DNA of 40,325 nt, taken from positions 1 through 40,325 of the forward strand of contig CACAFC010000010.1 of assembly GCA_902531765.1 (NCBI GenBank). The letters run 5' to 3'. A program made the translations under genes and the position numbers. The DNA is from an uncultured Pelagibacteraceae bacterium. Its GTDB lineage: Bacteria > Pseudomonadota > Alphaproteobacteria > Pelagibacterales > Pelagibacteraceae. The notes under the pieces were generated by a model. It saw only the letters and a list, made by a program, of their open reading frames with translations. It searched no databases and was not told the origin of the DNA. Shown here one piece after another: positions 1,273 through 40,030 of the stretch; the first letter of the stretch is position 1, and the number at the start of each line of letters is the position of its first letter.

Positions 1273-2676
1273 ATGCCCGATACACTTTACGATAAAATTT
1301 GGAACGAACACTTGGTTCATCAGCAAGAAGATGGAACAGCGTTATTGTTTGTTGATAGACATTTAGTTCATGAGGTCACAAGTCCTCAAGCTTTTGAAGG
1401 ATTAAGAAATTCTAAACGTAAAGTAAGACATCCAAAATTGACATTAGCAGTTGCAGATCACAATGTTCCTACAACAGATAGGTCAAAAGGTATTTCAGAT
1501 AATGAATCTAAAATTCAAGTAGAAACTTTAGAAGCAAATTGTAAAGAATTTGGTATTAAACTTTTTGGAATGAGTGATAAAAGACAAGGAATTGTCCATG
1601 TCACTGGTCCTGAACAAGGTTTCACTCAACCTGGCACAGTTATTGTATGTGGCGACAGTCATACAGCAACACATGGAGCATTTGGCGCATTAGCTTTTGG
1701 TATTGGAACTTCAGAAGTAGAGCATGTTTTAGCAACTCAAACATTAGTACAAAAGAAAGCTAAAAATTTCAGAATTAATGTTAACGGTAAACTTCCGTTA
1801 GGTGTTACATCGAAAGATGTAATTCTCCAAATAATAGGAAAAATAGGTACTGCTGGAGGAACAGGATGTGTAATAGAATATGCAGGTGACCTAATTAAAT
1901 CTTTAAGTGTGGAGAATAGAATGACAATTTGCAATATGACGATTGAGGGAGGAGCAAGAGCAGGATTGATAGCTCCAGATGAAAAGATATTCAAATATTT
2001 AGAAGGCAGACCAATGTCTCCCAAAGGAAATGATTGGGATAAAGCTTTAGAAAATTGGAAAAATTTAAATACAGATGAAGGTGCTAAGTTTGATAAAGAG
2101 GTAAATTTAGCTGCCAATGAAATTTTACCAATGATAACTTGGGGCACATCACCTCAAGATGTTATTACAATAGATGAAAAAGTACCAAATCCAAATAATG
2201 AAAAAGACGAGGATAGAAAAAATTCTTTAGAGAGAGCATTGAATTACATGGGTTTGAAACCTGATATGGCAGCTAAAGATATTAAAATTGATAAAGTTTT
2301 CATTGGTAGTTGTACGAATGGTAGAATTGAGGATTTAAGAGAAGCAGCAAAAATTTTAAAAGATAAAAAAATTGCATCTCATGTTCATGGTATGGTTGTT
2401 CCAGGTTCAGGATTAGTTAAAGAACAAGCTGAGCAAGAGGGGTTAGATAAAATTTTCGTAAAGTCAGGATTTGAGTGGAGAGAGCCAGGATGTTCAATGT
2501 GTTTAGCAATGAATGCAGATAAATTAAAACCAGAAGAGAGATGCGCTTCAACATCAAATAGAAATTTTGAGGGTAGACAAGGCAGAGGTGGAAGAACTCA
2601 TTTAGTTAGCCCTGGCATGGCTGCTGCTGCAGCAATATCTGGAAACCTTGATGATGTGAGAAAATATCAAAATTAA
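1273..2676 (+). CDS. leuC: 3-isopropylmalate dehydratase large subunit
   Basis: LeuC with LeuD isomerises 2-isopropylmalate to 3-isopropylmalate, the second step of leucine biosynthesis. The protein (467 residues) has normal family length. It shows the aconitase-type motif [21 protein letters not shown] near residues 125-145. The three cysteines expected to bind the [4Fe-4S] cluster are visible: C347 in IGSCTNGR, and C407 and C410 in [11 protein letters not shown]. The ATG at 1273 is 12 bases after the rplS stop, and leuD begins two bases after the leuC stop, so leuCDB is almost certainly one transcription unit. Confidence 0.97.
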
Positions 2677-2677
2677 T

Positions 2678-3283
2678 ATGCAAAAATTCAACACTTTGAA
2701 AAGTATACCAGCATATTTGCCAATAGTTAATATTGATACAGATATGATTATTCCAAAGCAATTTTTAAAAACAATTAAAAGAACTGGACTGGGCAAAAAT
2801 TTATTTTTTGAGATGAGATATGACGATCAAGGTAAAGAAATAAATGATTTTGTTTTAAACACAGATCCTTACAATAACTCAAAAATTCTAATTGCTGGAA
2901 AAAATTTTGGTTGTGGTTCTTCAAGAGAACACGCTCCATGGGCATTATTAGATTTCGGTATCACGTGTGTGATAAGCTCTAGTTTTGCAGACATCTTTTA
3001 TAACAACTGTTTTAAAAATGGAATTTTACCAATAATTTTAGATGACGATAAAATTAAAGAGCTATCAGAGTATGCAAAAAGAAAAGAAGAAATTTTTATA
3101 GATCTTAAGGAAGAAAAAGTTATTTTTGGAAATAATGAATTAAAATTTAAAGTAGACTCGTTTAAAAAAAAGTGTTTGTTAGAAGGATTAGACGATATAG
3201 CTCTTTCATTAAAAAAATCTGATAAAATAGAAATTTTTGAAAAAGATTTAAAAGTCAAAAAGCCCTGGGTGTTTAATGATTAA
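2678..3283 (+). CDS. leuD: 3-isopropylmalate dehydratase small subunit
   Basis: This is the swivel-domain partner of LeuC in the leucine pathway. The 201-residue length is normal. Family signatures are the N-terminal [14 protein letters not shown], the substrate-loop [17 protein letters not shown] around residues 73-89, and [18 protein letters not shown]. It starts one base after leuC and its last eight bases overlap the leuB start, which suggests translational coupling within leuCDB. Confidence 0.97.
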
Positions 3284-4382
3284 AGTTAAAAAAAGAAGAG
3301 TGTTATTGTTACCAGGTGATGGAATAGGTCCTGAAGTGATTGCAGAGGTCAAAAAAGTAATCAATTGGTTTAATGATAAAAAATCTTTAGATTTTGAAAT
3401 TGATGAGGATTTAGTTGGAGGAATTTCGTTTGATAAGCATGGAACACCTCTTACTGATGAAGTTTTTTATAAAGCATTAGAGAGTGCTGTAATAATGTTA
3501 GGTGCAGTTGGTGGACCAAAATGGGATGGTGTAGAATTTTCAAAAAAACCTGAGAGAGCCCTTTTAAAACTTAGAAAAGAATTAAAACTTTTTGCTAATT
3601 TAAGGCCAGCAATATGCTTTGAACAATTGGTAAATGCTTCAACTTTAAAACCAGAAATTGTATCAGGTTTAGATATTTTAATAGTTAGAGAATTAACTGG
3701 TGGAGTATATTTTGGAGAACCAAGAGGAATTAAACCAATAGAAAATGGAGAAAGAAAAGGAGTAAACACTCATACTTATACTAGTAGTGAAATTATTAGA
3801 GTAGCTAGAGTTGCTTTTGACTTAGCTAAAAAAAGATCAAATAGAGTCATATCTTGTGAAAAATCTAATGTGATGGAAGCGGGTCAACTTTGGAAAGAAG
3901 AAGTGCAATCATTACATGATAAAGATTATAAGGATGTTGAGTTAAGTCATATGTTGGCTGATAATTGTGCGATGCAATTAGTAAGAAACCCAAAACAATT
4001 TGATGTAATCTTAACTGATAATTTATTTGGTGACATGTTATCAGATGAGGCTTCTATGTTAACAGGTTCTCTTGGATTACTACCTTCTGCATCATTAGGT
4101 GCAAAAAATAAGGATGGCGAAATGAGAGCTATGTATGAACCTATTCATGGTTCAGCTCCAGATATTGCTGGAAAAGGAGTTGCTAATCCTATCGCCTCAA
4201 TTTTGAGTTTTGCTATGGCACTAAGATATTCTTTAGATTTAGATAAAGAGGCAGAGGCCCTAGAAAAGGCTGTGCAAGAGGCTCTTAATGATGGATTAAG
4301 AACAAAAGATATAATGTCTGATAAAATGAAAGAGGTTTCTACTTCTCAAATGGGTGATGCGATCATTTCAAAATTGCAATAA
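3276..4382 (+). CDS. leuB: 3-isopropylmalate dehydrogenase
   Basis: LeuB oxidises and decarboxylates 3-isopropylmalate to 2-oxoisocaproate with NAD+. The 368-residue protein carries the beta-decarboxylating dehydrogenase signatures: [11 protein letters not shown] at the N-terminus, the substrate-binding Arg region [23 protein letters not shown], and the metal/substrate segment [22 protein letters not shown]. The later [14 protein letters not shown] block is typical of the NAD-binding site. The start ATG lies inside the end of leuD (8-bp overlap). The stop is followed by only 26 AT-rich bases before the DMSP cluster, with no visible terminator, so readthrough from leu into dmd is plausible. 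Confidence 0.97.
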
Positions 4383-4410
4383 TTAATTAATTATCTTAAA
4401 GTCATAATAT

Positions 4411-6172
4411 GCCAAGCTATACCGCTCCTGTTGATGATATGATGTTTCTATTCGAGAAACTTAGAAATAATCAAAAATATAATGAGTTAGAAAAATATAA
4501 AGAGGTAACAACTGATTTAGTAAAAGATATTTTACAGGAGGCAGCGAAGATTAATCAAAATTTAATTTTACCATTAGCTAAAGCTGGTGACGAAAATCCT
4601 GCAGTTTTAGAAAATGGAGTAGTAAGAACTCCTCCAGGTTATAAAGAAGCTTACAAAAAATATATTGAGGACGGATGGACTTCATTATCTTGTGATCCAA
4701 AATATGGGGGTCAAGGTATGCCAAAAACTGTAAGTGCATTTTTTGATGAAATGCTTTCCTCAGCAAGTTTGTCTTTTAAATTATACAGCGAACTAAGTAT
4801 AGGTGCATATAATTGTATTAATCATCATGCTACAGACGATATAAAAAATAAATATTTACCTAAAATAGTTGAGGGAAAATGGAGCGGCACTATGTGTTTA
4901 ACTGAGCCAGTATGTGGTACCGATTTGGGTTTACTAAGAACAAAAGCTAAGAAACAAACTGACGGAACTTATAAAATAAGTGGTCAAAAAATATTTATTA
5001 CATCTGGTGATCATGATTTAACTGAGAATATTATTCATCTAGTTTTGGCAAGAGCTGATGACTCTCCAGCAGGCACAAAAGGAATAAGTTTGTTTTTAGT
5101 TCCAAAATTTGTGGTTAAAGACGATGGAACAATTGGACCAAGAAATGGGATATCTACAGGATCTATAGAGACTAAAATGGGAATAAAGGGATCAGCAACT
5201 TGTGTATTAAATTTTGATGATGCTACTGGATACATGATAGGTGCTAAAGAAAAAGGATTAAGTGCAATGTTCACCATGATGAATCTTGAAAGAATAGTTG
5301 TTGGTATACAAGGATTAGGTATTTCAGAAATTGCCTATCAAAATTCACTTACTTATGCAAAAGAGAGAAAACAAGGAAAATCAAATAATTCTAATTCAAA
5401 AAATGGTGCAGATTTTATAATTGAACACGCTGACATTAGAAGAACCCTACTTAATATGAAATCAATTATTGAAGGTGAAAGAGCTTTATGTTTTTGGTTG
5501 TCGCAGCAAACTGAAGTAAGTTTAAATCATCCAGATGAAAAAACCCGTCAGGAAGCCTCAGATTATGTTTCCCTCATGACTCCTGTGGTAAAATCATTAT
5601 TCACAGATTTAGCAATGGAAATAACAAGTGATGCTATGCAAATTCATGGTGGATATGGATACACTAAAGATCAAGGAATAGAACAATTATATAGAGATAA
5701 TAGAATTACACCTATCTATGAAGGTACAAATTCGGTCCAAGCTTCAGATCTAGTTTTCAGAAAATTATCAAATAAAAATGGTAATATAATTAATAAATTT
5801 TTAGATCAAGTTAAGTCGGAGTGTAAAACTGACAATGAAAAAATTAAACCATTTTTATCAGAATTTAACAAGAATTTAGACACTCTTAAAAAATTCAGTG
5901 ATTGGATGACAGATAAAGCAAAGGCAGAAAAAGATGATGTTAGCGCAGGGGCTAATGACTACCTAAAAACTCTAGGTTATGTATCTATTGCATATGCATG
6001 GATTAAGGTTCTAGAGGTGAGTTTTAAAGATTATGAGGAAAATAAAAATTTTTATAATGATAAAATAGACACTGCTAGATTTTATTTTGACAAAGTATTA
6101 CCTAGAGCTGAACATCACTATAAGTCTGCAATTTCTGGAAGTTCAAATATTATGAATTTCAAGTTCAATTAA
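4411..6172 (+). CDS. dmdC: Acyl-CoA dehydrogenase of DMSP demethylation, 3-methylmercaptopropionyl-CoA dehydrogenase
   Basis: DmdC is an FAD enzyme that oxidises 3-methylmercaptopropionyl-CoA to methylthioacryloyl-CoA, the third step of DMSP demethylation. The ATG lies at about 4409-4411. At 587 residues it is a long acyl-CoA dehydrogenase, the size typical of DmdC rather than the ~380-residue fatty-acid enzymes. Visible motifs are MCLTEPVCGTDLG (residues ~162-174, FAD/substrate loop), ISGQKIFITSGDHD, and IHGGYGYTKDQGIEQLYRD, followed by YEGT with probable catalytic-base Glu438. A ~130-residue C-terminal helical extension follows. The next gene, dmdB, starts on the base after its stop. The subfamily call rests on length, motifs and neighbours dmdB and dmdA; an ordinary medium- or long-chain dehydrogenase is unlikely here. 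Confidence 0.9.
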
Positions 6173-7789
6173 ATGAGTCATTACGAAACTAATCTTGATA
6201 AAAATGATGCAAATTATGTTCCATTAACACCTCTGACTTTTTTAAAAAGAGCTTATGAAATTTATCCCAATTATGAAGCAGTTATTTATGAAGATAGGAA
6301 ATATACTTGGAGTCAAGTTTATAAACGAGCTGTAAAATTTTCTAGCGCACTTAATAAAATTGGAGTTAGTAAGGGTGATACTGTCTCGTTTTTAGCTTTT
6401 AATACCCCCGAAATTTTTGAGGGACATTATTCAGTTCCAATGACAGGTGCAGTTCTTAATACTATTAATATTAGATTAGATGCTAAGACAATTGCGTATA
6501 TTTTAGAACATAGTGAGGCAAAAGTTTTAGTTGTTGATAGGCAACTTCATTTTGAGGTAAAAAAGGCCCTAAATACTTTAAAAAGAAAAATAATAATAAT
6601 TGATATCGACGATAAATTTGCAGACCAATCTAAGTGTGAGAAAATTGGAGAATTAGAATATGAAAGTTTTTTAAATACTGGTGATGAAAATTATAATTGG
6701 GAAATGCCAGAAGATGAATGGCAAGCATTATCACTTAGTTATACTTCAGGAACTACTGGAAACCCTAAGGGAGTTGTTTACCACCATAGAGGATCATATT
6801 TGATGTCAACTGGAAGTGCAGTTGCATGGAATATGCCAAATAGATTAAATTTTTTGACTATTGTGCCCATGTTTCATTGTAATGGTTGGGGTTATCCGTG
6901 GACTGTTCCCATGTTAAATGGAAGAACTATTTGCTTAAGAAATATTGATGTTAAGAAAATTTTTGAATTAATTGATAAATATGACGTCACGCATTTCGGA
7001 GGGGCGCCAATAGTGCTCAATATGATTACAGGAGCTCCTGCGTCCGACAGAAAAAAGCTAAAACAAAAAGTTTATGTATTGACCGCTGGAGCACCGCCAC
7101 CAAGCATCATATTTAAAAAAATGAAAGAACTTGGATTTGAAGTAATGCATGTCTATGGATTAACAGAAACATATGGTCATGTTACTCAATGTGCTTGGAA
7201 CGACTCTTGGAATGAATTTGATGAAGAAAAGCAGAATGAGATAAAGGCAAGGCAAGGAGTAAGATACCCTAATACAGAGGGAATTACAGTTATGGACCCT
7301 GAGTCAATGAAAGAAGTACCAAAAGACGGAAAAACGATTGGTGAAATTATGATTAAAGGAAATGTCGTTATGAAGGGCTATTTCAAAGATAAAGATGCTA
7401 CAGATAAAGCTATGGGTGGTGGATGGTTTCATTCTGGAGATTTGGCGGTCATGCATCCAGATGGATATGTTAAAATTCAAGACAGATCCAAAGATATCAT
7501 TATTTCTGGAGGTGAAAATATTTCTTCAATCGAAATAGAAAACACTTTAGCAAAGCATCCATCAGTTTCTATTGCAGCAGTAGTAGCAAAACCAGATGAA
7601 AAATGGGGCGAAGTTCCATGTGCATTTATTGAGATGGTCCAAGATAAACCGGTTACAGAAAAAGAATTAATAAGTTTTTGTAAAGAAACCCTTGCTGGTT
7701 TTAAAGTGCCGAAACAAGTTGTTTTTTGTGAATTACCAAAGACTTCAACAGGTAAAATTCAAAAATTTGAATTAAGAAAAAAATTTTAG
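6173..7789 (+). CDS. dmdB: 3-methylmercaptopropionate-CoA ligase (acyl-CoA synthetase)
   Basis: DmdB activates 3-methylmercaptopropionate, the product of DmdA, to its CoA thioester with ATP, via an acyl-adenylate. The 538-residue protein is a complete ANL-superfamily ligase. The AMP-binding P-loop SYTSGTTGNPKG is at residues 189-200, the adenine-binding VYGLTETYG lies mid-protein, GGGWFHSGDLAV and DRSKDIIISGGENIS mark the hinge, and the C-terminal STGKIQK carries the probable catalytic Lys528. It starts immediately after the dmdC stop (zero spacing). Family membership alone would allow a medium-chain fatty-acyl-CoA ligase; the flanking dmdC and dmdA make DmdB the best call. Confidence 0.9.
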   Translation: MSHYETNLDKNDANYVPLTPLTFLKRAYEIYPNYEAVIYEDRKYTWSQVYKRAVKFSSALNKIGVSKGDTVSFLAFNTPEIFEGHYSVPMTGAVLNTINIRLDAKTIAYILEHSEAKVLVVDRQLHFEVKKALNTLKRKIIIIDIDDKFADQSKCEKIGELEYESFLNTGDENYNWEMPEDEWQALSLSYTSGTTGNPKGVVYHHRGSYLMSTGSAVAWNMPNRLNFLTIVPMFHCNGWGYPWTVPMLNGRTICLRNIDVKKIFELIDKYDVTHFGGAPIVLNMITGAPASDRKKLKQKVYVLTAGAPPPSIIFKKMKELGFEVMHVYGLTETYGHVTQCAWNDSWNEFDEEKQNEIKARQGVRYPNTEGITVMDPESMKEVPKDGKTIGEIMIKGNVVMKGYFKDKDATDKAMGGGWFHSGDLAVMHPDGYVKIQDRSKDIIISGGENISSIEIENTLAKHPSVSIAAVVAKPDEKWGEVPCAFIEMVQDKPVTEKELISFCKETLAGFKVPKQVVFCELPKTSTGKIQKFELRKKF

Positions 7790-7797
7790 GAAAATAA

Positions 7798-8574
7798 TTG
7801 ATATTCCAACTAGAAAACAAAAACATTCATGTATCCGATTCTGGTCAGGGTATAGATATGAATAAAGATACGATAGTATTTTTACATGGAAGTGGTCTTT
7901 CACACATTGTTTGGTCGCTAGCTGAACAATTTTTTTCATCAAAAAATTATAATGTATTATCTATAGATTTACCTGGACATGGAAATTCAGATGGTCCTTG
8001 TTTAGATAGTATTGAAAAAATTGCTGATTGGATGGAAAAAGTATTTGATAAATTAAAATTAAAAAACTTAATTTTAGTTGGTCACTCTCAAGGATGTTTA
8101 GAAATACTCGAATATTCTTCAAGATATAAAGAGAGACTCAAAAAATTAGTTTTTGTTGGAGGTTCAAATAAAATGCCGGTACACCCGGATCTAATTGAAT
8201 TAGCTCAAAGCGGACACTCAGACGCTGTTAAATTAATGATGAAATGGGGATATGAGGGTTCAAAAAAGTTTATTGGTGGTAACCCAGTAGAAAAAATCAT
8301 CCAATCGCCGAGAGATATAAGTGAAATTTTGGCTGTTGATTTAAATGCATGCAACAATTATTCAAATGGCTCTGAGGCTGCAAAAGTAATTGATCTACCA
8401 TCGATGCTTATATTTGGAGAATTAGATAAAATGGTTAATTTAGAAGCAGGAAAAAAATTCTCTAATTTGATTAAAAATTCAACTACTCACGTGATCAAAG
8501 GATGTGGTCATATGATAATGATTGAAAAAGCATTCGAAATGAGAGAAAAGATTTTAGAATTCTTAAATAAATGA
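7798..8574 (+). CDS. Alpha/beta hydrolase of unknown substrate within the DMSP cluster
   Basis: This is a complete alpha/beta-hydrolase-fold protein (258 residues). The catalytic set is visible: oxyanion-hole HGSG (30-33), nucleophile elbow GHSQG with Ser97, acid Asp210 in FGELDKMV and His238 in CGHMIMIE. No signal peptide is seen, so it is probably cytoplasmic. The start is a TTG at 7798 preceded by an AGGA ribosome-binding site with seven-base spacing. The first ATG (7858) would remove residues that look like the first beta strand. Its stop overlaps the dmdA start as ATGA, which indicates translational coupling to dmdA. The substrate is not recognisable from sequence. A thioesterase or ester hydrolase acting on a DMSP-pathway intermediate is possible, but this is inference from position only. 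Confidence 0.85.
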
Positions 8575-9680
8575 AAAGTTATCCAATAGCTAAATCAAGA
8601 AGAGTGAGAAGTACTCCGTATACTTCAAGAATTGAAAATCAAGGTGTGACTGCCTACACAGTTTATAATCATATGCTGTTACCAGCAGCATTTGGATCTT
8701 TAGAAGAATCCTGTGATCATTTAAAAAAAAATGTTCAAGTATGGGATGTATCAGCAGAAAGACAGGTTGAAATTTCAGGCAATGATGCAGCGAAACTTGT
8801 TCAACTTATGACCTGTAGAGATTTATCCAATTCCAAAATTGGCAGATGTTATTATTGCCCAATAATTGATGAAAGCGGAAATTTAGTAAATGATCCAGTT
8901 ATTTTAAAGCTAGCTGAAGATAGATGGTGGATCTCAATTGCTGACTCCGATGTTATTTTTTTTGCAAAAGGATTAGCATCAGGAAATAAATTAAATGTAA
9001 AAATTTTTGAGCCTAATGTTGATATCTTAGCAATTCAAGGACCCAAATCTTTTGATTTGATGGAAAAAATTTTTGGTAAGGAGATAAAAGAGTTAAAATT
9101 TTTTGGATTTGATTATTATGATTTTGAGGGTGTAAAACATTTAATTGCTAGATCTGGTTGGTCAAAACAAGGAGGTTTTGAGATCTATGTTGAAAATACT
9201 AAATCTGGATTAGATTTATATGATCAACTTTTTGTATTAGGAAAAGAATTTAACGTAAAAGCTGGATGTCCAAATTTAATTGAAAGAATAGAAAGTGGTT
9301 TACTTTCTTATGGAAACGATTTTGACAATAATGATAATCCATTTGAATGTGGTTTTGAAAAGTATGTAAATTTAGATACAGATATAGATTTTTTAGGTAA
9401 AGAAAAATTGAAAAAGATTCAAAAAGAAGGAATCAAAAGAAAATTAATGGGTGTTCAGATTGATATTAGCAAAATTAATTTAACTAAATCTCTTAATATC
9501 AAAGATGAAAAAGGAAATTTAATTGGGGATTTAAGATCTGCCTGTTATTCACCTCATTTTAAAAAGTCTATAGGTATTGCAATGATAAATGAGCCGCATT
9601 GTAAAGCATCTGCTACAGGATTATTGGAAATTGGTGGAAATTTAATAGCTGTAAAAGTTTGCGATTTACCTTTCATCTAG
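8571..9680 (+). CDS. dmdA: Dimethylsulfoniopropionate demethylase
   Basis: DmdA transfers a methyl group from DMSP to tetrahydrofolate, giving 3-methylmercaptopropionate and 5-methyl-THF. It belongs to the GcvT aminomethyltransferase fold. The 369-residue length equals that known for Pelagibacter DmdA. Visible are the N-terminal extension before the GcvT core, [13 protein letters not shown] (58-70), [11 protein letters not shown] (103-113) and [14 protein letters not shown] (195-208). By my alignment, the first Asp of the Asp-Asp pair in glycine-cleavage GcvT is Asn107 here. The flanking genes are dmdC, dmdB and a hydrolase rather than gcvH or gcvP, which argues against a glycine-cleavage T protein. 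The start overlaps the hydrolase stop by 4 bp. Confidence 0.95.
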
Positions 9681-9695
9681 TATAAACCCTACATC

Positions 9696-10703
9696 ATGAA
9701 TATAGCAATAGTAGGAGCAACAGGTAATGTTGGAAGAAAAACTCTGGAAGTTCTCGAAAAAAAAGGACTTACTTTAGGAAATCTTTACTTGGTTGCTTCG
9801 TCTAAAAGCGCTGGAAAAAAAATTCATTTTCAAGGTAAAGATATTGTGGTGAGTGAATTAGAAAATTTTGATTTTTCCAAAGTTAAAATCGCTTTTTTTG
9901 CAGCAGGTGGTAAAATTTCTGAAAAATTTGCTGAAAAAGCAGCCAAGCATTGTTTAGTAATTGATAATTCTAGTTTTTTCAGAATGGATCCGAATGTTCC
10001 TTTAATAGTCCCGCAGGTAAATTCAGATGATTTAAAAAATGTTAAAAAAAATATTATTGCAAATCCTAATTGTTCAACAGCACAATTAGTAATCGCATTA
10101 AAGCCGTTACATGATTTATTTATAATTAAAAGAATAGTTGTTTCAACATACCAATCTGTTTCTGGTGCTGGTAAAGCATCAATGGATGAATTGATTAAAC
10201 AAACTAAATTAGCTTTAGATGGTAAAGATATTAAATCTGAAAATTTCACAAAACCAATCGCTTTTAATGCTATTCCACATATCGATGTTTTTTCAGAAGA
10301 TGGCTACACGAAAGAAGAGTTAAAAATGAGAAACGAGACTAAAAAAATCTTAGATTACAAAATCGAACTAACAGCAACATGTGTTAGATTACCAATATCT
10401 GTTTCTCACTCAGAGTCGGTAAATATTCAATTTGAGAAAAGTTTTTCGTTAGAACAAATAAAAAAAGCATTGAATGGTTTTGACGGTTGCAAAGTAATTG
10501 ATGAAAGAATTGATGGAGGTTACTCGACACCATTAGAGGCTGAAGGAAAAGATGAAACTTTTATTTCAAGGATTAGAGAAGATAAAACAATAAAAAATGG
10601 ATTAAATTTGTGGATTGTATCTGATAATCTTTTAAGAGGTGCTGCATTGAATGCAGTTGAAATAGCTGAATCATTAATTAAAAATAATTTTTATGGAAAA
10701 TAA
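9696..10703 (+). CDS. asd: Aspartate-semialdehyde dehydrogenase
   Basis: Asd reduces aspartyl phosphate to aspartate semialdehyde with NADPH, feeding lysine, threonine and methionine synthesis and the peptidoglycan precursor diaminopimelate. The 335-residue protein has the N-terminal nucleotide motif VGATGNVGRKTLEVL, the catalytic Cys126 in NPNCSTAQ, and RLPISVSHSESVNIQF with the active-site His region. The ATG at 9696 is 15 bases after dmdA, so it may be co-transcribed with the dmd cluster. Its 3' end overlaps sdhC by 11 bp. Confidence 0.97.
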   Translation: MNIAIVGATGNVGRKTLEVLEKKGLTLGNLYLVASSKSAGKKIHFQGKDIVVSELENFDFSKVKIAFFAAGGKISEKFAEKAAKHCLVIDNSSFFRMDPNVPLIVPQVNSDDLKNVKKNIIANPNCSTAQLVIALKPLHDLFIIKRIVVSTYQSVSGAGKASMDELIKQTKLALDGKDIKSENFTKPIAFNAIPHIDVFSEDGYTKEELKMRNETKKILDYKIELTATCVRLPISVSHSESVNIQFEKSFSLEQIKKALNGFDGCKVIDERIDGGYSTPLEAEGKDETFISRIREDKTIKNGLNLWIVSDNLLRGAALNAVEIAESLIKNNFYGK

Positions 10704-38911: not shown

Positions 38912-40030
38912 TTATCTCTCTGAGTAAGATTTATCTAAAAAATTTTTAAGGGTTTTTAAAAAGTCTGGAACATCTAATAAAAAAGAATCATGACCTTTGT
39001 CAGATTTTATTTCAACAAATCCAACATCAGCACCAATTGCATTAAGTGCGATAACTATATCTTTATTTTCTTGGGTTGGATAAAGCCAGTCTGAGGTAAA
39101 AGATATTACAAAAAACTTAGCCTTAGTTTTTTTAAATGCATTAGATAAATTACCATCAAATTGTTTAACTAGATCGAAATAATCCATTGCTCTTGTTATA
39201 TAAAGATAACTATTAGCATCAAATCGATCTACAAAAACCGATCCTTGATATCTTAGATAACTCTCTATTTGAAAATCTGCATCAAATCCAAATTTAAGAG
39301 CATCTCTTTCTTGAAGTTTTCTTCCAAATTTTTCTTGTAAACCTTTTTTAGACAAATAAGTTATATGTGCAGCCATTCTCGCTACTGATAACCCTTTATC
39401 GGGAAGAGTATTATTAGATAAATATTTTCCGTCTGACCAGTTATGATCTGATGCTATCGCTTGTCTACCCAATTCATTAAAAGCAATATTTTGAGCAGAA
39501 TGATTAGAGGTACATGCGATTGGTACTACTGTACTAGCTTTATCTGGATAATTACTAATAAATTGTAAAACTTGCATTCCTCCCATCGATCCACCAACAA
39601 CTGAAAAAAGTTTTTTGATTTTAAAATGATCTAATAAATTTACTTGTGCATTCACCATGTCATTAATAGTAATTACAGGAAAATCTGTGCCGTAAATCTT
39701 ATTTGTATCGGGATTTTTGTGGCTTGGACCATATGATCCCATACAACCACCTATAACATTTGCACAAATAACAAAATATTTATTTGTATCTATTGATTTG
39801 TTGGGACCCACTGCATAAGACCACCAACCATCTTTTTTTGTGATAGGATTAATTCCCGTAACAAATTGATCACCGGTAAGTGCATGAAAAACAAGAATCG
39901 CATTATCTTTATTTTTATTAAGTGAACCATAAGTTTCATAGGCTAGTGGATAATTATTAATAGTTTTACCACAATCAAGATTTAATGGTTTTTTAATAAT
40001 AAGTGTTTTTATATTCTCTTTAATATTCAT
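38912..40030 (-). CDS. metX: Homoserine O-acyltransferase MetX
   Basis: MetX acylates homoserine with acetyl-CoA or succinyl-CoA, the committed step to methionine. The 372-residue alpha/beta-hydrolase-fold protein has the nucleophile Ser148 in VGGSMGGMQ, ICANVIGGCMGSYGPS, and the C-terminal acid/His region SDWLYP and KGHDSFLLD. The family is usually called acetyltransferase, but the acyl donor cannot be read from sequence alone. The start is the ATG at 40030, downstream of a SAM-II aptamer, so expression should respond to SAM. Confidence 0.95.
   Translation of the reverse strand: MNIKENIKTLIIKKPLNLDCGKTINNYPLAYETYGSLNKNKDNAILVFHALTGDQFVTGINPITKKDGWWSYAVGPNKSIDTNKYFVICANVIGGCMGSYGPSHKNPDTNKIYGTDFPVITINDMVNAQVNLLDHFKIKKLFSVVGGSMGGMQVLQFISNYPDKASTVVPIACTSNHSAQNIAFNELGRQAIASDHNWSDGKYLSNNTLPDKGLSVARMAAHITYLSKKGLQEKFGRKLQERDALKFGFDADFQIESYLRYQGSVFVDRFDANSYLYITRAMDYFDLVKQFDGNLSNAFKKTKAKFFVISFTSDWLYPTQENKDIVIALNAIGADVGFVEIKSDKGHDSFLLDVPDFLKTLKNFLDKSYSER

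Follow-up and report, generated by a model that had tools for sequence, protein, structure and literature searches.

The window, a stretch of 40,325 nucleotides from an uncultured Pelagibacteraceae bacterium, carried an alpha/beta-hydrolase gene, here named hydA (positions 7798 to 8574, + strand), inside a dmd operon. The open reading frame list, Pfam, alignments and a structural model gave it 258 amino acids, a TTG start and a conserved Cys185. A probable ribosome-binding site read in the DNA, AGGA (7788 to 7791, +), overlapped the TAG stop codon of dmdB (7787 to 7789) and stood six bases ahead of the TTG. At the other end, the stop codon of hydA and the start codon of dmdA overlapped in an ATGA (8571 to 8574, +), probably with translational coupling.

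The gene downstream, dmdA (8571 to 9680, +), encoded a DMSP demethylase (NCBIfam NF009133, 578 bits; cut-off 410), and was followed on the right flank by asd, aspartate-semialdehyde dehydrogenase (9696 to 10703, +; NF011456 and TIGR01296 above cut-off). Upstream of hydA, the dmdB-like gene (6173 to 7789, +) encoded an acyl-CoA ligase of the PRK08162 type (PRK08162 'acyl-CoA synthetase', 852 bits; cut-off 677) and failed the MMPA-CoA ligase equivalog NF005426 (346 bits; cut-off 822). The dmdC-like gene (4409 to 6172, +) encoded an acyl-CoA dehydrogenase of 587 amino acids by Pfam and NCBIfam, with no equivalog above cut-off; the names dmdB and dmdC therefore rest on synteny and the literature. 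The left flank (3276 to 4382, +) was, by synteny, the one usual for the dmd cluster in relatives, a gene which we take to be leuB by recognition of its sequence, without a family scan. No hydratase gene adjoined the dmd operon of the window. A metX-like gene for homoserine O-acetyltransferase (38936 to 39994, - strand) matched Pfam Abhydrolase_1 and TIGR01392 (455 bits, E 3.6e-137), whose cut-off of 500 was reached neither by this gene nor in any of 14 control genomes. It was the sole TIGR01392 match (E ≤ 1e-30) of the genome, which ruled out hydA as MetX; the two are alike in alpha/beta-hydrolase fold and, for hydA by proposal, in a tie to the methionine pathway, but are separate genes of the same window.

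hydA scored 97 bits against Pfam Abhydrolase_1 (cut-off 25.8) and belongs to the alpha/beta-hydrolase superfamily; the NCBIfam profile search with hydA returned no model above its own cut-off. Ser97, Asp210 and His238 showed no variation across 28 aligned sequences or in another alignment of 43, and neither did the HSQG nucleophile elbow. These residues aligned with Ser89, Asp200 and His228 of the carboxylesterase AF-Est2, the equivalence of Asp200 and His228 being taken from the alignment. The predicted structure was a capped alpha/beta-hydrolase fold of ordinary esterase type, modelled with confidence (pLDDT 90). Among the best 80 loci of a scan of named genomes, the nearest homologue was 98% identical and came from an uncultured Pelagibacteraceae isolate, and the closest rows in the family tree originated from Candidatus Pelagibacteraceae; the organism is a member of SAR11. 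Two other copies were apparently broken by decay or sequencing error, one lying in two pieces (L096, 4995 to 5769) and one with a single internal TAA (G226:C2:29726-30394).

In a sample of 61 genomes, the window's own included, 20 carried hydA (homologues of at least 55% identity), and every one of them had it placed between dmdB and dmdA. The best 80 loci of the named-genome scan, which was not a census, comprised 51 of the hydA type and 29 of a second type described below; dmdA was directly downstream of hydA in 51/51 and dmdB directly upstream in 49/51 of these listed loci, a set that shares genomes with the 20. The position of hydA is more than chance. The original prediction, made from the letters of the window, had reported an intact triad, a TTG start with an AGGA site, an ATGA overlap with dmdA and a place between dmdB and dmdA; DNA, alignments and both genome sets bore this out, and the check that it had proposed, the linkage of close homologues to dmdA, left the link standing. 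Prepilin-like genes occupied the place of dmdB and dmdC upstream of hydA-dmdA in L078 and L082. L217 also had hydA-dmdA without dmdB and dmdC upstream, and L217 and L078 are probably one genome.

The second type, here hydB, was a relative of hydA at 39-45% identity, present in nine of the 61 genomes and in the 29 remaining loci of the best 80. It lay directly after a MetY (O-acetylhomoserine sulfhydrylase) gene, metY1, and away from dmdA, in 29/29 listed marine loci and 9/9 genomes of the 61; metY1 of L021 passed the PRK08134 equivalog. The 20 genomes with hydA in the sample of 61 all lacked metY1. Across a class-wide sample of 385 alphaproteobacterial genomes (family match at E ≤ 1e-50), the hydrolase family occurred in 104 genomes at 105 places, and 101 of these (100 genomes) were directly downstream, on the same strand, of a PRK08134-type metY. 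Of the four exceptions, three were hydA of SAR11 and the last was truncated where its contig ended; 5/105 metY1 genomes had no hydrolase. With 101 of 105 loci adjoining metY, the pairing of hydrolase and metY is an old one. To our knowledge, this metY-linked alpha/beta-hydrolase family of Alphaproteobacteria has no name. A search for plasmid-borne relatives of hydB gave no match at E 1e-30.

hydA formed a single clade nested among metY-linked rows (support 100/100, and 88/90 for the fork at which it joins them) in a family tree rooted on one distant outgroup, AF-Est2, and the stem of the clade was long (0.84 changes per column). hydA and hydB had the triad and Cys185 in common; hydA differed in its dmd-operon location, its long stem and the loss of Lys216 in most sequences (Lys in 4/30 hydA vs 13/13 hydB). 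The window's hydA is thus nested in the metY-linked family but follows dmdB, in a genome where no metY1 was found, and is a relocated descendant rather than a member by position.

Genomes with hydB retained an intact dmd cluster except for the missing hydA. Spacing between dmdB and dmdA was 11-111 bases in 22 hydB loci vs 784-797 in 30 hydA loci, a set without L217, whose hydA locus had no dmdB at that place. The other location was a site with flanks labelled, on our assumption, rplM and ctaA. Four hydA genomes had metY2 alone there, behind a SAM-V riboswitch; the hydB genomes L112 and L126 had metY1-hydB ahead of metY2; and in L115, L230 and L231 metY2 was missing and metY1-hydB was accompanied by another, third gene. 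Two genomes with such metY2-less loci, G029 and G011, gave no other MetY match at E 1e-60. The dmd and metY loci swap the hydrolase gene at fixed sites, in several lineages. The third gene in place of metY2 in the three loci was a relative of a gene of L021 that encodes 369 aa and matched no Pfam family. At this site, compared among L112, L126, L226-L229, L115, L230 and L231, the SAM-V riboswitch was directly before metY2, and the site can hold metY1-hydB. Control of the hydrolase by SAM-V was rejected: the riboswitch lay between hydB and metY2 in L112 and L126, and ahead of metY1-hydB the scanned loci gave no SAM-V hit as high as the gathering score.

A first tree of 21 rows yielded three independent pairs, which put significance out of reach, and it was therefore enlarged to 59 rows. 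On the 59-row tree (a quick tree without bootstrap, from the four genes flanking the dmd operon and not the whole genome, with L201 and L222 dropped for short sequence), the hydA state changed at least 10 times, and 8 changes were forced by supported branches. Over 8 independent pairs, hydB was opposite to hydA in 6.4 on average, the same in 0 and without difference in 1.6 (median p 0.03). Of the seven rows with neither form, six had hydB rows as neighbours and L200 had a hydA row. Median identity of hydB pairs was 91% where LeuB was 87% (8 genomes), and hydA pairs were 63% identical at equal LeuB distance (10 genomes). For G029/G036, LeuB was 95% and hydB 88% identical; for G029/G011, LeuB was 87% and hydB 95%. 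As a sequence pattern, these identities fit a history in which metY1-hydB spread horizontally and hydA was then lost. dmdA was itself out of step with its neighbours in G029/G036 (67% identity at 95% for LeuB) and in other genomes of genus g1, which suggests, from the sequences, recombination of dmdA within a fixed dmd locus.

Co-occurrence was counted in 397 genomes of the window's family, Pelagibacteraceae, with a hydrolase match at E ≤ 1e-40 and a dmdA match at a chosen threshold of E ≤ 1e-130. One hydrolase match was found in 222/397 genomes and two in none; the 222 were split by E-value only into 176 hydA, 46 hydB (rows between 1e-50 and 1e-66, the weakest G114 and G141) and 0 with both. 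At the dmd locus, 16/46 hydB rows were inspected, G004 and G029 included. dmdA occurred in 209/397 genomes, and 200 of the 209 had one form (162 hydA, 38 hydB) and 9 neither; dmdA-less genomes had one form in 22/188. Many genomes are incomplete, which could account for some misses of dmdA and of the hydrolase alike, and some dmdA misses were cut genes, as in G022, where a piece of dmdA lay at a contig end.

Their common operon makes the tie between hydA and dmdA partly trivial. The tie of hydB to dmdA is not, since hydB is unlinked to dmd: among hydA-less genomes, hydB was present in 38/47 with dmdA vs 8/174 without. Within genus g1 alone, where the counts assume a full listing of g1 genomes without a match, the proportions were 37/43 vs 7/15 (p 0.004), weaker than across the family, and the Fisher values ignore shared descent. 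From the pattern of hydB presence and absence, together with 200/209 vs 22/188 and the repeated exchange, the hydrolase probably serves the DMSP-methanethiol-methionine route. With no metY1 in the 20 hydA genomes and few carriers among dmdA-less genomes, the gene follows dmdA, not metY, in SAR11.

The best solved relative of hydA by sequence was AF-Est2 (PDB 5frd; 5e-31 vs 2e-23 for the next), with 26% identity and Z 29.9. The first 14 rows of the fold search spanned Z 31.5 to 30.3 and all had the general capped esterase fold, which points to no particular substrate; the fold relatives included an acyl-homoserine lactonase and an enol-lactonase. According to the available text of PMC4861933, AF-Est2 binds CoA beside its active site, with Ser89 catalytic, and had no thioesterase activity on acetyl-CoA or succinyl-CoA. 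Cys172 of AF-Est2, beside the CoA thiol, was matched by Cys185 in 30/30 hydA, 13/13 hydB and 19/20 class rows. The triad and pocket Cys are thus alike in AF-Est2 and hydA, but two AF-Est2 residues were unconserved, the adenine-stacking Tyr207, which was absent, and Arg119. Lys or Arg stood at position 125 (the groove test for AF-Est2 Arg117) in 22/30 hydA. The position of AF-Est2 Lys206 was Lys in hydB and class rows and Glu in 23/30 hydA.

DmdD hydrates MTA-CoA, methanethiol is lost spontaneously and DmdD then hydrolyses the CoA ester (PMC3660561, available text). Its orthologues are given as absent from Ca. Pelagibacter ubique in the part of PMC5069961 available, and PMC5395565 gives MTA-CoA as a substrate of AcuH too. 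A DmdD that hydrolyses the CoA ester and is missing in SAR11 leaves room for a thioester hydrolysis step. The three crotonases of the window's own genome (92% complete) matched no DmdD model, of which the NCBIfam set may contain none. hydA itself was an alpha/beta hydrolase by profile and model and did not have the crotonase (ECH) fold; DmdD belongs to the crotonase superfamily and also hydrates, so that hydA would have in common with it the CoA-ester hydrolysis half-reaction only, and this by proposal.

Five SAR11 loci carried, in order, a fadB/J-type hydratase-dehydrogenase, dmdC, metF (in four), dmdB, hydA and dmdA. Nine loci from other marine Alphaproteobacteria carried a relative of the fadB/J-type hydratase, then dmdB, metY1 and hydB, and the hydratase of one of them (L113) was 46-48% identical to those of SAR11. 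In these five and nine loci the other steps have a nearby gene, and the hydrolase is the step that remains. On contig C4 of the own genome (L223), a PRK08139-type enoyl-CoA hydratase gene (1477 to 2250) was directly upstream of an SBP56 gene (2435 to 3742), SBP56 presumably being the family that contains the methanethiol oxidase MtoX. This hydratase is, by sequence, a candidate MTA-CoA hydratase of the genome.

The reading preferred here, at a probability of about 0.4, is that hydA represents, within the dmd operon of SAR11, the serine hydrolase found directly after PRK08134-type MetY elsewhere in Alphaproteobacteria, and serves the conversion of DMSP to methionine, likely by CoA-thioester hydrolysis. 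The route would run from DMSP to MMPA, MMPA-CoA, methylthioacryloyl-CoA, methanethiol and methionine, and a cell running it would need one hydrolase, supplied by the dmd operon (hydA) or by the metY locus (hydB); we infer that both perform the same job. An ordinary enoyl-CoA hydratase would hydrate MTA-CoA, methanethiol would leave and a CoA ester would remain. Ser97 would then attack this remaining thioester (malonate-semialdehyde-CoA or a precursor) and free CoA, so that hydratase and hydrolase together would replace the two-function DmdD. The CoA thioester left after MTA-CoA hydration would be the likeliest substrate of hydA. Against this role stand the inactivity of AF-Est2 on two CoA esters, the unconserved Tyr207, the Glu in place of Lys206 in most hydA and the 9 of 209 dmdA genomes with neither form. 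It is also not obvious why a CoA thioesterase should sit beside MetY in the class-sample genomes.

The metY context is better suited by a methanethiol-linked thioester, a reading rated only somewhat below that of the CoA thioester and, on its own, possible but rather doubtful. Here the enzyme would hydrolyse thioesters formed when methanethiol or homocysteine exchanges with acyl-CoA, for example S-methyl thioesters, and recover the thiol and the acyl group, its gene lying next to those that make methanethiol (dmd) or those that use it (metY). One chemistry would then cover both homes, among them the metY-hydB pair of bacteria for which DMSP use is not known. Cys185, the nearly invariant equivalent of the Cys beside the CoA thiol, is consistent with it, and so are five g1 genomes (G001, G003, G007, G028, G034; 60-83% complete) that had no DmdA above cut-off and kept a 43-45% MetY with neither hydA nor hydB. 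The titles listed from the literature on methanethiol, S-methyl thioesters, esterases and acyl-CoA, however, deal with flavour in foods, with synthesis, with probes and with an antimicrobial. An enzyme of the methionine side, with an ester from the MetY reaction as its substrate (O-acylhomoserine, or else a lactone or thiolactone of homoserine or homocysteine) and its expression tied by the dmd placing to the methanethiol supply, would account for the 101/105 metY partners, for the descent of hydA from a metY-linked family and for the lactonases among the fold relatives. It is unlikely given the 20 hydA genomes without metY1, the scarcity of either form in dmdA-less genomes and the presence of MetX as a separate gene.

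Neither of two further explanations reaches that level. A broad esterase that hitch-hikes in conserved operons would agree with the ordinary fold and with the lack of an NCBIfam model above cut-off, but absence at the dmd operon was repeatedly paired with presence at the metY locus, which hitch-hiking does not lead one to expect, and the explanation is improbable. Most improbable is a C-C bond hydrolase that splits malonate-semialdehyde-CoA into formate and acetyl-CoA. It takes its appeal from the name mhpC, from MhpC and BphD among the relatives of hydA by sequence and fold, and from a substrate that is a 1,3-dicarbonyl; hydA nevertheless fell far below the C-C hydrolase equivalogs (BphD 55/462 bits, HsaD 62/400 bits; no MhpC model was among those listed), and no C-C hydrolase came as near in sequence as AF-Est2.

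SAR11 rank among the ocean's most abundant cells, and their demethylation of DMSP is a major step of the ocean sulfur cycle. The last demethylation step in SAR11 lacks an assigned enzyme since DmdD is missing, and a gene that tracks dmdA from one of two places is a concrete candidate; hydA is probably an enzyme so far missing from the DMSP-to-methionine route. The original prediction had suspected a missing pathway component, a suspicion strengthened by the tracking of dmdA, and had linked the gene to the DMSP pathway, which held for SAR11 but not for the family, a metY partner in the rest of the class sample. Its suggestion of a DMSP-ester hydrolase found no support in the gene contexts. Its argument that nothing described in the DmdA-B-C-D route calls for a separate ester hydrolase overlooks the CoA-ester hydrolysis carried out by DmdD (PMC3660561) and the absence of DmdD from Ca. 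Pelagibacter ubique (PMC5069961). Nor was the gene unnoticed: a figure legend of Sun et al. 2011 (PMC3160333) lists an mhpC of SAR11 Ia genomes with dmdA, fadD and mmgC, very probably the same gene as hydA, from the same SAR11 gene set. The text of that legend mentions no role, metY link or exchange of place.

A role for the hydrolase beside MetY in Alphaproteobacteria was found described nowhere in a literature search that left out most subscription papers, which makes this a weak absence. As far as that search shows, the exchange of the gene between two loci and the distant tie of hydB to dmdA are new. An uncharacterised hydrolase beside metY in 100/385 sampled Alphaproteobacteria would thereby be tied to methanethiol use. 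The wider proposition that SAR11 DMSP demethylation has a fifth enzyme, a MetY-side hydrolase traded between the methanethiol-producing dmd and the methanethiol-consuming metY loci with one copy kept, stands at even odds.

Two further features of the dmd loci were recorded. A metF-like methylenetetrahydrofolate reductase gene lay between dmdC and dmdB in L099, L103, L109 and L110 (2467 to 3360), with a Pfam MTHFR match for L099. A second gene above the NF009133 (DmdA) cut-off, a DmdA paralogue, accompanied the dmd-locus copy in G023:C20, G027:C10, G018:C3, G011:C19, G013:C1, G004:C5, G005:C15, G024:C4 and G026:C2.
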